Positions 3,280 to 63,698 of a stretch of 64,000 nucleotides of DNA are shown here, in pieces. The DNA is from a virus. The notes below the pieces were generated by a model that was not told the DNA's origin, made no database searches, and saw only the letters and a program-made list of their open reading frames with translations. Location: the IMG/VR virus record IMGVR_UViG_3300022927_000015, positions 1 through 64,000 of that record. One strand, written 5' to 3'. The stretch's first letter is position 1; the number at the start of each line of letters is the position of its first letter. The translations under genes and the position numbers were made by a program.

Positions 3280-3657
3280 TTATTTTGTTTGAAGAAGATC
3301 CATAAACTTATCAAAGGATAAAAGTAATACTTTCTTCTTCTTTTTCTTTTTTCCTGTTGGGATATCGCCACTACCGACGGTTTGGCTTGCAAAAGAATCC
3401 ATAGAACCAGGATTTCCAGGAAGCTCAACAGCTCCCATACCTTGTACATTCATATTAGGATTTACTGTTACTGCATCCTCGTCTACTTTATCAGGTAAAC
3501 CTTCTTCTTTGGTTTCTGCATAGTCTTTTAAATCTTTCTCTGGTAATTTAGAAAGATCTTTAACTTCATCAGAAACTTCAGATGCAGCAAGCTCCCCACG
3601 TTTAAATTGGAGAGCCAGAGCAAATAGTCTTCTTTGTGCTTTACTTTGTGCCGGCAT
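3280..3657 (-). CDS. Small DUF3008-like protein, 125 aa
   Basis: The N-terminal 55 residues (MPAQSKAQRRLFALALQFKR..., then SEVSDEVKDLSKL...KDLKDYAETKEEGLP) match the pattern of the DUF3008 family, whose members begin MPAKSKAQ and end near a conserved K-x-x-GLP. The function of that family is not established. Residues 102-109 are a run of eight lysines after GDIPTG. The C-terminus (LLLSFDKFMDLL) resembles the FxxF motif seen at the ends of other proteins here. The start codon overlaps the stop of the upstream gene as TAATG, so translation is probably coupled. Confidence 0.6.
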   Translation of the reverse strand: MPAQSKAQRRLFALALQFKRGELAASEVSDEVKDLSKLPEKDLKDYAETKEEGLPDKVDEDAVTVNPNMNVQGMGAVELPGNPGSMDSFASQTVGSGDIPTGKKKKKKKVLLLSFDKFMDLLQTK

Positions 3658-8032: not shown

Positions 8033-9304
8033 CTATCTTCCGTACTTAATAATACCTAATAATTGATTAAGTGGAGCAAAAGCACCAGTTAATTTATATA
8101 GCTTTCCGTTATATCTAAAGACAATACCTTCGCTTGGATAAATTGAATCAAGGCCACCGATTCGGTCAAGTTTAGCCAATTGGTCTTCAACCTTTTTAAT
8201 TTGATCAACACCGCCACCTTTTCTAATTTTAGTAGTTTCAGTATCAAGATAAGCTCTTAATCTTTGTGCTTCATCAGATGGGTTTGCCGCAACAAAATTA
8301 CTTGCATTCCTAATAATAGTAGCACCAAGCTCCAGGAATAGATCTTCAAAAGGTCTAATGTTTTCTTTATACTTTTTCTTAACATCTTCTTTATCATACT
8401 TCTTAACTAATGCAGCTTCATCTTTTCCGATTTGCTTTTCAAGAGATCTCATATTTAAGCTTTTCTTATCGCCGTACGCCCATCTCCGTAAAAGCCCTTC
8501 CTTAACATCTTGTGAAAGGTTAGGAAAGTCTGCATCAATCAATTCTCTCCACCACATTTCATGGTAACGAGAAACTTCATCACCGTCATTTAAACCATAA
8601 CGATTTTGTAATGCAATAACTTTATCTTCAAACCTTTTCTTATTAGCGCTAAAATCAACATCTCTTTGTAGTTGAAGTATTCTAGGTGGAATAATCTTAA
8701 ATGTTTTACCTATATCAGATTTTACTTTGGCTAAGATTTGTGGAATTTCTTTAGCAGGTCTACTATCCGTATCTAAGATATTCCCATCACCATCTGTTTT
8801 TGTAATATTATGAAATTGAATAACATCAGTATCATAGTTAATTACATTAGGATTTTTAGAATAGATAAGCTCCATATTCATAAAGTTCTTACCATTATCA
8901 AAAATCTCTTCTTGTTTTGGTTTAGGCAATTTAACTAAAAGACTAGCAAGATCTTTAGCAGCAAAAGTAAATGTATCTCTTACCATAGGAACATCATGAG
9001 ATTCAAACTTTGATACGAATTGACTAAGACTCATAGGATCTTTTGTATCACCTGTATTTCTGGCAAACATAACATTACCATCTTTCATAGTAACAAATAA
9101 GTTTTGCCCATCGGTCTTTTCAATAGGATCCTCTTCAAAGTTCAATTCCCCGCGAAGTCCTGCATCAACGATCTTTTTAAAGTCACCGAAGGTTAATCCT
9201 TTATCATCATACGGATGGCTCATATGACCAGCTGCTCCGCCTTCAAAAAGAAATGGCTGGCTTTTATCGGCCAGCCATTCTTCAAACAATTTAATATGTT
9301 TCAT
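8033..9304 (-). CDS. ATP-dependent ligase-like covalent nucleotidyltransferase, 423 aa, with capsid-targeting-like N-terminus
   Basis: Motif I is IEKTDGQNLF (residues 61-70, candidate adenylated Lys63 in K-x-D-G). A motif III-like FMNMELIYSK lies at 141-150. Motif IV is SEGIVFRYNGK (391-401) and motif V is the adjacent LYKLTG with Lys404. These are the hallmarks of the DNA/RNA ligase superfamily. The long helical insert between motifs III and IV (about 230 residues) and the lack of a clear OB domain are unlike the canonical phage ligase, which is encoded separately at 58818-60140. The N-terminus (MKHIKLFEEWLAD) resembles the T4 capsid-targeting peptide, so it may be packaged in the head. The substrate (DNA, RNA or protein) is unknown. 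Confidence 0.65.
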   Translation of the reverse strand: MKHIKLFEEWLADKSQPFLFEGGAAGHMSHPYDDKGLTFGDFKKIVDAGLRGELNFEEDPIEKTDGQNLFVTMKDGNVMFARNTGDTKDPMSLSQFVSKFESHDVPMVRDTFTFAAKDLASLLVKLPKPKQEEIFDNGKNFMNMELIYSKNPNVINYDTDVIQFHNITKTDGDGNILDTDSRPAKEIPQILAKVKSDIGKTFKIIPPRILQLQRDVDFSANKKRFEDKVIALQNRYGLNDGDEVSRYHEMWWRELIDADFPNLSQDVKEGLLRRWAYGDKKSLNMRSLEKQIGKDEAALVKKYDKEDVKKKYKENIRPFEDLFLELGATIIRNASNFVAANPSDEAQRLRAYLDTETTKIRKGGGVDQIKKVEDQLAKLDRIGGLDSIYPSEGIVFRYNGKLYKLTGAFAPLNQLLGIIKYGR

Positions 9305-12283: not shown

Positions 12284-12732
12284 TAAAATTCTTTATCATC
12301 TAAGCTAATACGATTCCTAATAGCAAAGGCCATATTATCCAGCGTTTTGATACATTCATAGTAATAATCAATATGAGATTGTAACATGTCTATTTGGGTC
12401 CTAAGCGAGGCTAAGTCTGCTTTAATGAATTGATTTTTTTCACCGTTGGTTAGCTTAATATCATAGTTAACAGAATATTCTCTATACTGTGATTTGTAAT
12501 ACTTATCCCAAGTAGCGTTTCTTTTATATATTGTTGTCTTAAAATCAGTAACCTTATCTAAGAGTATCTGTCTATAAGATAGCATTCTTACTTGGCATTC
12601 TGATAATTCGTTCATGTTTTTAAGCTTACTTACAAGATCTTTGATCTTTTCTTTCCAATCTTCACGATCTTTAGTTAGTCTTTGTTCTAACTGTTCGTTA
12701 GCTTCTTTAATTTGTGTATCGTCAAATGCCAT
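12283..12732 (-). CDS. uvsY: UvsY-like recombination mediator, 149 aa
   Basis: UvsY loads the UvsX recombinase onto gp32-coated single strands. The protein matches T4 UvsY in size (137 aa) and in layout: a helical N-terminal half with a basic segment and a C-terminal helix pair (ADLASLRTQIDMLQSHIDYY then IKTLDNMAFAIRNRI) that aligns by eye with the UvsY end (KVDTSLQYWGILLDF...LDAIKSRGFAIKHI). Its position directly before uvsW and after a primase and an SSB supports the call. Identity is low, so the call leans on both pattern and synteny. Confidence 0.7.
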   Translation of the reverse strand: MAFDDTQIKEANEQLEQRLTKDREDWKEKIKDLVSKLKNMNELSECQVRMLSYRQILLDKVTDFKTTIYKRNATWDKYYKSQYREYSVNYDIKLTNGEKNQFIKADLASLRTQIDMLQSHIDYYYECIKTLDNMAFAIRNRISLDDKEF

Positions 12733-12947
12733 TAAAATATACCTTTATCGTTGTTAGTCTTTTTATAATTCTTAATCTTAGGTTGAAACTTTTTCTTAGG
12801 CTCAGGTAATGTAAAGCTAGTATCAAATGAATCTACTTTCATCTTACCAAATTTAGTAAAGAGTTTAAGTTTCTTTTTTGAAGTTTCAAAGTCTTTGTAA
12901 AAATCATCAAATTGTTCAGTCACAAATTCATTATAATTTTTTATCAT
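12732..12947 (-). CDS. Small Lys-rich protein with capsid-targeting-like N-terminus, 71 aa
   Basis: The N-terminus MIKNYNEFVTE matches the capsid-targeting form, with a probable cut after Glu11. The remaining 60 residues are basic (for example SKKKLKLF, PKKKFQPKIKNYKK) with no acidic tail, which fits a DNA-binding internal head protein. It overlaps the primase stop by 4 bp (ATGA) and the uvsY-like start by 1 bp, so it is co-translated with replication genes. No family is recognised. Confidence 0.6.
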   Translation of the reverse strand: MIKNYNEFVTEQFDDFYKDFETSKKKLKLFTKFGKMKVDSFDTSFTLPEPKKKFQPKIKNYKKTNNDKGIF

Positions 12948-16273: not shown

Positions 16274-16933
16274 TCATCCTTTTTCTTTATTTGCATTTAA
16301 AATAAAATACGCATCTATTAAATCATCCAAAGGCTTGGGGATCTTTTCTGAAAAGTCTTTACCTTGAGTCCACTTCCACAATTCAGTTTTTCTCAGGTTC
16401 TTATCATTAAGTACATCATCTTGAAATGCCTTAGCCATATAGTGCTTGTTTGCATTACCTTTACCTGCTAGCTTTTTAATATGAGAAGGTTGGTAAATTG
16501 ATATCTTATTGACACCCCATGCATTAACTAGCCTATTTCTTAAGAATGTGTTATACTGTACAATGTCAATAAATGAATTACCTTTAGAACCGTAAGAGAA
16601 CCCTTCAAGAGAAACTTTATGTGAGTCTGTTCCAAAGAGTGTTATTAAGATATTTCCAATAAGATCGGCTATAGATTGACCGTCTGTCATTTTCTCTCGT
16701 TCTCTAAGTAAAAAATCCTTACTTGCTACATGCCTATAATAAGGAAAGCCTATTATGGTTTTACTGTCCATCAATTCTTTATGAACTGAAAATGCTTTAG
16801 GTATTTTACGGCCTTCTTCATCCCAGATACGATTACCGTAATTAAAGAAAGTTATAAACTTATATTCACCTTGATGGTTCTGTACACAAACACCTGGGCT
16901 ATTGAGAGAAAAATCAATTCCTGTATAAATCAC
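16274..16933 (-). CDS. RuvC-like Holliday junction resolvase, 219 aa
   Basis: The RNase H-like fold is indicated by Asp7 in TGIDFSLNSPG, Glu110 in KVSLEGFSYGSKG, a HIKKLAGKGNANKHYM segment (compare RuvC VKK-x-x-x-G-x-G-x-A-x-K) and a C-terminal acidic cluster PLDDLIDAYF (Asp203, Asp204, Asp207). RuvC enzymes cleave four-way junctions; in T4 this debranching job is done by the unrelated endonuclease VII (gp49). The start is GTG at 16931-16933, since no ATG is available before the conserved Asp. It lies 10 bp downstream of the CTS-type gene and upstream of a 129-bp gap. Confidence 0.8.
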   Translation of the reverse strand: MIYTGIDFSLNSPGVCVQNHQGEYKFITFFNYGNRIWDEEGRKIPKAFSVHKELMDSKTIIGFPYYRHVASKDFLLREREKMTDGQSIADLIGNILITLFGTDSHKVSLEGFSYGSKGNSFIDIVQYNTFLRNRLVNAWGVNKISIYQPSHIKKLAGKGNANKHYMAKAFQDDVLNDKNLRKTELWKWTQGKDFSEKIPKPLDDLIDAYFILNANKEKG

Positions 16934-16943
16934 TTAGATAAGA

Positions 16944-17294
16944 TTAAAGTCTCTTACCAAGAACCGCACCTAATGCAGCTCCTACTAATCGACTGGTTAG
17001 AAGATCATATAGAGCACCCTTCTCAATTCCTAATACTTTAGCAATTGCTTTACCTACCGCCTTTCCTAAAGCAAAACCAGTAAGACCACCTAATACTGAA
17101 CCTAAGATACCCTCATTAACAACTTCTTCCATTACTTCTTCAAGATCACGACCACTTTCATGTTCTTTCATTATGCGATCAACCGCTTCATCGATTGCAG
17201 CTTCCTGCTCGTGGGTTAATGATTCGTTTAACAAAGCCTCAATATCTACTGAGTCATTATGGTTTTCGGTAAGGTAATCTTTAAATGTTTTCAT
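16944..17294 (-). CDS. Probable internal head protein with glycine-zipper C-terminus, 116 aa
   Basis: The N-terminus MKTFKDYLTE is very close to the T4 capsid-targeting peptide MKTYQEFIAEA. Two further Glu-terminated sites of the same type follow: ALLNE-S (after Glu24) and EVVNE-G (after Glu61). The first half is acidic and helical. The last 55 residues (GILGSVLGGLTGFALG..., KAVGKAIAKVLG..., RLVGAALGAVLGKRL) are hydrophobic, Gly/Ala-rich and cationic, like a membrane-active or pore-forming peptide. If the prohead protease cuts at VNE-G, this segment would be released inside the capsid. No family is recognised. Confidence 0.6.
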   Translation of the reverse strand: MKTFKDYLTENHNDSVDIEALLNESLTHEQEAAIDEAVDRIMKEHESGRDLEEVMEEVVNEGILGSVLGGLTGFALGKAVGKAIAKVLGIEKGALYDLLTSRLVGAALGAVLGKRL

Positions 17295-17313
17295 TGTACT
17301 CTATTTCCTTTGT

Positions 17314-17322
17314 TTATATATT
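17314..17322 (-). promoter_or_regulatory. Late-type promoter motif AATATATAA
   Basis: The minus strand reads CTAATATATAAACAAAGG, 19 bp before the ATG of the 116-aa internal-head-type gene and overlapping the stop of the tail-tube-like gene. A good Shine-Dalgarno (AAAGGAAAT) follows. Confidence 0.55.
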
Positions 17323-17875
17323 AGGTAAGATTAACTGCTATATTAAGTATGTTATATGTGAAGTTAATATCAAAGGTTTGGAATTCTACTGTATTGCTTG
17401 AAAAGTTTAAATCTAATGCACTTACACCGGTCATTATCATATCTTTTAGCTGAACGGTAACAAAAATATTTCCTTCGCCGTCTAACATTTGCAAACCTAC
17501 ACCTTCTGGTACGAACGGATCTTTACCTGATAGCTTATAGTAATAGTCAAAAGTTTCAACAGCCATCCAATAATTTATCCACCCATCAAATGCTTGCATG
17601 GTAACAGTTAAAGTTTTATCAAATAGCTCTTGTGTAGGTAAGCTACTTCTAAAGCTCCTAGTATTACCTGGGAAGTCATTTTGTGTAACAGGATCAAAAG
17701 ATGGGCCTGGTAAATTCATTGACTGTATTCCGTAATTAAAATAGTCAATAGGTTCCTTTATAAGACCACCAGGTATCCTATTTAGATAAGGCCTATACTT
17801 ATTTGAAATTTCCTTTGGAATAAAAGTTCTAGGAAACTCAAACCTAAATTGATTATTTCTTGCGCTTAATATCAT
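17321..17875 (-). CDS. Tail tube-like protein (gp19 family fold), 184 aa
   Basis: The order of segments resembles T4 gp19: an early strand (FRFEFPRTFI), FNYGIQSMNLPGPSFDPV (gp19 FQCKATALPAG), DKTLTVTMQAFDGWINYWM (gp19 DWTVTVMND...RQKFVDW), then VTVQLKDMIMTGVSALDLNF and a closing VEFQTFDINFTYN (gp19 IQTFEVTLALDYW). Tail tube proteins stack as hexamers inside the sheath. The length (184) is near gp19 (163). Baseplate tube initiators (gp48/gp54) share this fold, so it could be one of those. It follows large structural genes and precedes a head-type gene. Confidence 0.6.
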   Translation of the reverse strand: MILSARNNQFRFEFPRTFIPKEISNKYRPYLNRIPGGLIKEPIDYFNYGIQSMNLPGPSFDPVTQNDFPGNTRSFRSSLPTQELFDKTLTVTMQAFDGWINYWMAVETFDYYYKLSGKDPFVPEGVGLQMLDGEGNIFVTVQLKDMIMTGVSALDLNFSSNTVEFQTFDINFTYNILNIAVNLT

Positions 17876-41214: not shown

Positions 41215-41223
41215 TTATATATT
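41215..41223 (-). promoter_or_regulatory. Late-type promoter motif AATATATAA
   Basis: The minus strand reads GAGAATATATAATAAAAG, 16 bp before the ATG of gp25-like. Confidence 0.55.
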
Positions 41224-43422: not shown

Positions 43423-43431
43423 TTATATATT
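43423..43431 (-). promoter_or_regulatory. Late-type promoter motif AATATATAA
   Basis: The minus strand reads TTGGAATATATAAACAAATC, 16 bp before the ATG of the amidoligase-like gene. Confidence 0.55.
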
Positions 43432-62969: not shown

Positions 62970-62978
62970 AATATATAA
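62970..62978 (+). promoter_or_regulatory. Late-type promoter motif AATATATAA on the plus strand
   Basis: The plus strand reads CATGAATATATAATCAAAAT, 16 bp before the ATG at 62995. This is the only plus-strand gene start in the window with an intergenic region, and the motif has switched strand with it. Confidence 0.6.
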
Positions 62979-63500: not shown

Positions 63501-63698
63501 ATGAGCATACCTAAATTTAATGAATATGTAAACGAAGCAATGGTTCAGGTTGCTGGTGATAAGAAACCTGCAGGTGCAAAGATTTTAGCAAGTGAAATTG
63601 TTGATAAATTAGAAAGCGCAAAAATGCTTAAACCTGGTGCTAATATCAACGCTGTTAAAAACGCAGTACAAATGATCATCATGGATACAACATTTTAA
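63501..63698 (+). CDS. Small protein with capsid-targeting-like N-terminus, 65 aa
   Basis: The N-terminus MSIPKFNEYVNEAMVQ carries the F-x-x-Y-V-x-E form with a probable cut YVNE-A. The rest (AGDKKPAGAKILASEIVDKL, NINAVKNAVQMIIMD) is a short amphipathic helical protein. It starts 2 bp after the preceding stop and ends 3 bp before the next start, so the three plus-strand genes are one unit. Confidence 0.55.
   Translation: MSIPKFNEYVNEAMVQVAGDKKPAGAKILASEIVDKLESAKMLKPGANINAVKNAVQMIIMDTTF

Follow-up and report, generated by a model that had tools for sequence, protein, structure and literature searches.

The window analysed here, a viral DNA stretch of 64,000 nucleotides within a virus record of 72,312 bases, encodes at 16944-17294, on the minus strand, a 116-residue protein that is likely to enter the prohead and to be cleaved there by the phage head protease. 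This assignment is proposed because the protein has a T4-like tag and conserved cleavage sites, because relatives encode the corresponding protease, because the same junctions occur in capsid proteins, because the pro-region copies the capsid-protein arm in some lineages, and because the gene has a promoter-like motif in common with portal, protease and tail-tube genes. The protein belongs to a widespread, previously undescribed family, which is a well-bounded variant of the T4-type head-packaged, protease-trimmed proteins.

The gene content of the window is that of a contractile-tail T4-like phage, with baseplate wedge and hub genes, a tail-tube-like protein, gp32 and a primase, together with UvsW/UvsY-like proteins, RuvC and GroES. 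The quoted sequence of the 116-residue open reading frame was confirmed, and a Shine-Dalgarno-like AAGGA can be read upstream of it (17306..17310, minus strand). On the same strand, the gene is flanked by a tail-tube-like gene (17321..17875; phrog_45, E=4e-7), a second copy whose main counterpart lies elsewhere in the related 181-kb contig G015, and by a RuvC-like resolvase gene (16274..16933; phrog_159, E=6e-12). Relatives were found in at least 228 candidate stretches of IMG/VR and in 16 phage records, namely all 15 of the 15 Lak megaphages and LR756500 (462 kb), where the gene carries no annotation; the GTDB contigs searched contained no relative. A second LR756500 match (E=2e-4) is confined to the pro-region and was left out of the count. 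In total, 120 distinct open reading frames of the family were gathered from T4-like huge phages, so that the search for the same design in related phages, suggested with the original prediction, gave a positive answer: the architecture is conserved across huge phages.

Among 83 distinct loci, the tube-like gene lies directly upstream of the family gene in 79 and RuvC directly downstream in 76. When the tube-like neighbour is taken as an anchor, down to about 31% identity, the family gene is present in 76 of 78 loci, and this near-universal retention suggests a core role for the protein. Two tube-like loci, L208 and L216, have no adjacent family gene, RuvC-like gene apparently coming next in L208. 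In several lineages among L205-L228, other small genes with MKTF- or MEIPNF-type tags stand between the tube-like and family genes, as if the interval served to accommodate accessory genes for head-packaged proteins. In most lineages the family gene adjoins tail genes, not head genes; in Lak its position is different, some 4 kb upstream of the gene for the head maturation protease (phrog_207, E=2e-30).

The N-terminus of the window protein, MKTFKDYLTE (residues 1-10; 17265..17294, minus strand), resembles a capsid-targeting tag ending in L-T-E and aligns to MKTYQEFIAE of T4 IPII. This likeness to a T4 tag had been pointed out beforehand and is borne out; the comparator is T4 ipII, which a query beginning with MKTYQEFIAE matches at 100%. 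In the T4 tag, residues 4 and 7 contribute to targeting and residues 8 and 10 to processing (PMC9026906). The window protein has F4, Y7, L8 and E10, the positions important in T4 being thus conserved in kind, and MKTFKDYLTE counts as a tag when this is defined by an aromatic or hydrophobic residue at positions 4, 7 and 8 and E at position 10. Across 61 near relatives, mean conservation is 0.97 for residues 1-10, 0.58 for residues 11-20 and 0.94 for residues 21-25, which end in LNES. The window has 5 tag-like starts where its shuffles give 0.8; G015 has 8 where shuffles give 2.8 and reach up to 8. Since this enrichment over whole stretches is weak, the argument rests instead on the conserved sites and on the capsid junctions.

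The gp21 protease of T4 cleaves after L/I-x-E (PMC9026906). The three glutamate sites put forward for the window protein, E10, E24 and E61, are correctly placed, and a cut after E61 leaves 55 residues. Near relatives retain L-x-E at both E10 and E24, and the second predicted site (L-N-E24 / S25; 17220..17231, minus strand) reads LNES in 58 of 61. The third, V-N-E61 / G62 (17109..17120, minus strand), falls in a coil between helices in the structural model; its E61-G62 pair is invariant in the 120 distinct reading frames, with N at P2 in 114. At P3, the residue is I, V or L in 73 cases, Thr in 37, Met in 9 and Asn in 1. Thr at this position departs from the T4 L/I-x-E rule; capsid proteins of four contigs of the Thr-P3 sub-lineage retain L-x-E, and an upstream [LIV]-x-E is present in 120 of the 120 frames. 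Residues 1-61 form an acidic pro-region (17112..17294, minus strand; computed net charge -14). In the family as a whole, pro-regions span 52 to 282 residues with a mean charge of -12 and are unrelated between lineages. No other single argument speaks as strongly for the C-terminal piece being released as this invariance of E61-G62 behind sequences that are unrelated. Thus, the idea of a cleavable head-type protein stands as far as the tag, the sites and a design kept across huge phages are concerned; it is the Thr at P3 in 37 of 120 members that does not fit.

A gp21-type protease is encoded by LR756500, by Lak, by G015, where it lies at C1:18182-19903 and whose family member is 68% identical to that of the window, and by 8 of 10 further large contigs. 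No such gene was found in the 72-kb record holding the window, nor in other fragments of similar size; judging from the large relatives, the phage of the window very probably encodes one beyond the available stretch. In G015, the junction LNE|S recurs in the capsid protein, within its N-terminal arm, and in the protease itself, close to the C-terminus, and other capsid proteins from related contigs read LYE|N, LYE|D, LNE|N or LNE|D at the corresponding place. Genome-wide, [LIV][NT]E[GSA] occurs 57 times in G015 against 17.5 expected. Family members with a long pro-region carry NGMG-x-V-S-L-P...GSGD, a motif of the capsid-protein N-terminal arm that, in all the sequence examined, has no other occurrences than those in major capsid proteins and in a further protein of the window. 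In several of these long pro-regions, the NGMG motif follows a site of the NE|N or NE|S type, with about the spacing seen in the capsid protein. The long pro-region thus has the look of a capsid-arm copy, and two unrelated kinds of pro-region both point to the head. The additional window protein, of 125 residues (3280-3657, minus strand), contains a sequence closely resembling the major-capsid N-terminal arm (NPNMNVQGMGAVELPGNPGSM...GSGDIP) and, after it, a run of lysines; it is likely to be a head protein too.

At 19 nt upstream of the gene stands AATATATAA (17314..17322, minus strand), a putative late promoter. It occurs 12 times in the window against 4.2 expected, examples being 17314-17322, 41215-41223, 43423-43431 and 62970-62978. 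Placement 9-33 nt upstream of starts is observed for 8 of the 12 window copies and for 22 of 30 in G015, where about 3% would be expected, and the G015 genes behind it include those of the portal, the protease, the tail tube and the family member. The T4 late promoter TATAAATA, unlike AATATATAA, is not enriched. As its consensus suggests, AATATATAA is a candidate late promoter distinct from that of T4.

The predicted mature peptide (residues 62-116; 16947..17111, minus strand) has a net charge of +5 and predicted helices at 63-88 and 94-113. AlphaFold2 gave a mean pLDDT of 75 for the peptide alone; for the whole protein the value is 62, and the model breaks at 61-62. In the family, the C-terminal piece measures 55-60 residues, with GILGS, GLLGS or GFLGS as predicted starts at G62, and its net charge ranges from +1 to +7, never being negative. 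Helix 1 (17031..17108, minus strand) bears a glycine stripe, G65, G69, G73, G77 and G81, each glycine being kept by 84 or more of the 86 distinct peptides, as is Gly62; the zipper spacing, for which a check had been proposed, is therefore conserved. The window peptide contains 7 G-x3-G pairs against 2.3 in shuffles (p=0.0004). L88, G89, T100, S101 and A107 are invariant among the peptides, and an LTSR motif is near-invariant. Helix 1 is apolar in its first half, and in its second half lysines run along one side. Glycine spacing and positive charge are thus as originally predicted, but hydrophobicity is only moderate: the best 19-residue Kyte-Doolittle mean is 1.41, with an octanol energy of +1.3, against 1.93 and -7.9 for a real transmembrane helix in the same window, and neither scale revealed a clear transmembrane segment in the hairpin. 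The hydrophobic moment is 0.40; magainin and melittin reach 0.51-0.55. Charged residues replace the glycines of the second helix in the L196-L204 group, where the helix sequence is SAALAQELTKKLF or close to it, and in Lak the peptide carries a net charge of only +1, with Glu in its second helix; because of these two cases, a hairpin with two transmembrane helices is not a general property. A holin was considered and rejected on account of the head tag and the absence of a convincing transmembrane segment.

Taking these properties together, the following scheme may be envisaged. The proprotein, expressed late, would enter the prohead by means of its N-terminal tag, where the gp21-type protease of the phage would cut it at the L-x-E sites and at E61. 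Of the products, the acidic pro-region would be discarded, and the cationic 55-residue glycine-zipper helical hairpin would stay in the head. It would then leave with the DNA, pack or oligomerise at the host envelope and aid genome entry. The chance that this scheme is right from end to end appears slightly below even. Taken by itself, action of the hairpin on a membrane after ejection ranks first among the uses of the peptide, as a tentative proposal. It was part of the original prediction, where the peptide was called antimicrobial-like; the likeness is one of composition, and the membrane role agrees with a cationic, amphipathic, glycine-striped peptide and less well with the lack of a clear transmembrane segment, the charged second helix and the charge of +1 in Lak. 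The fold searches gave no structural match that would support a pore. It is doubtful that the idea can be carried to its full extent, in which the heads of huge T4-like phages would carry a protease-released, glycine-starting hydrophobic hairpin as a core component, ejected with the genome and inserting in the host inner membrane. If true, it would provide a tailed-phage counterpart, in principle, of the protease-activated fusion peptides of viruses. We know of no described mechanism for the passage of the very long genomes of the largest phages through the inner membrane, and the family is a near-universal, well-bounded candidate for this step, with a mature N-terminus predicted to the residue.

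The second-ranked use would be in assembly. The hairpin would tether the prohead core to the inner membrane, and the cut at E61 would free the prohead, with no role in the next infection. This is a serious rival, since T4 proheads arise at the inner membrane and come away from it after proteolysis by gp21, while giant-phage proheads remain attached without proteolysis (PMC9026906). A core tag, cleavage sites and a membrane-prone hairpin, in this order, would suit a cuttable link, and the family gene is conserved as a core gene would be. However, the T4 portal itself makes the membrane contact (PMC9026906), the missing transmembrane segment weighs here too, and only a location at the portal vertex would put the hairpin on the right side of the shell; we consider a tether unlikely. 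A third possibility, likewise unlikely, is structural: the cleaved hairpins would form a helical oligomer, packed by their glycine stripes, on the inner capsid wall, portal or neck, and would not touch a membrane. Tight helix packing would account for the stripe and for the near-invariant LTSR motif, in some lineages the second helix is amphipathic and charged, and docking on the shell is suggested by the capsid-arm mimic of the long pro-regions. Yet the first helix is conserved, cationic and very hydrophobic, and no known structural analogue was found. Finally, it is quite improbable that E61-G62 is only a domain boundary, with a head-targeted protein trimmed at E10/E24 or left uncut and the hairpin still attached: the Thr at P3 in 37 of 120 members and the position of the pair exactly at the predicted inter-helix break would agree with this, but not the keeping of one polar residue, E, in 120 of 120 while all upstream sequence varies.

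Comparison with known systems helps to situate the preferred reading, that of a processed prohead protein whose hairpin is ejected. Like T4 IPI, IPII, IPIII and Alt, the protein is small, head-targeted and provided with a 10-residue tag ending in L/I-x-E (PMC9026906). The T4 internal proteins are, unlike the family, basic, poorly conserved and accessory (PMC9026906); the family occurs almost throughout its phage group, and the product it conserves is a glycine-zipper hairpin, for which no similarity to T4 was found. With the T4 core proteins gp67, gp68 and gp22, which are cut into fragments, it shares an acidic sequence and several gp21-type sites (PMC9026906). Fragments of the T4 core are mostly expelled, whereas the C-terminal fragment of the family is its most conserved part and is cationic. 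The ejection (pilot) proteins of T7, P22 and giant phages are borne in the head and exit with the DNA, the role proposed here, and in SPN3US the head protease processes some of them (PMC8954989, PMC5694885); they are mostly much longer, and neither sequence nor fold similarity to the family was found. Pfam glycine-zipper families have the G-x3-G stripe in common with the window protein, at E values of about 0.001-0.07, over a match of 11 of its residues; Gly-zipper_Omp (PF13488) scored 17.5 bits and Rick_17kDa_Anti (PF05433) 13.5 bits, below their gathering cut-offs of 25 and 24.2 bits. PHROGs returned only weak, unnamed matches (best E 2e-4), from two families and to the glycine-rich part. 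A PDB profile search gave no match, and comparison of the medium-confidence model with viral models and the PDB gave nothing below E=1. In the literature, nothing relevant was found on glycine zippers in phage virions, and no report was found of internal head peptides in Lak-type megaphages.

The rule [L/I/V]-x-E | N/S/A/D/G, together with the capsid-arm mimic, may be used to list other head-packaged proteins of huge phages. Three more window proteins have T4-tag-like starts, at 8033-9304 (minus strand), 12732-12947 (minus strand) and 63501-63698 (plus strand). These starts, MKHIKLFEEWLADKSQPFLFE|GG, MIKNYNEFVTE and MSIPKFNEYVNE, end in L/V-x-E or have an E|G junction nearby. In LR756500.1, at about 418.6 kb (L176:18577-18837), a tag-like start and VINE are followed by a glycine-rich stretch (WLIGLGYGTGAG), possibly a second protein of similar design.
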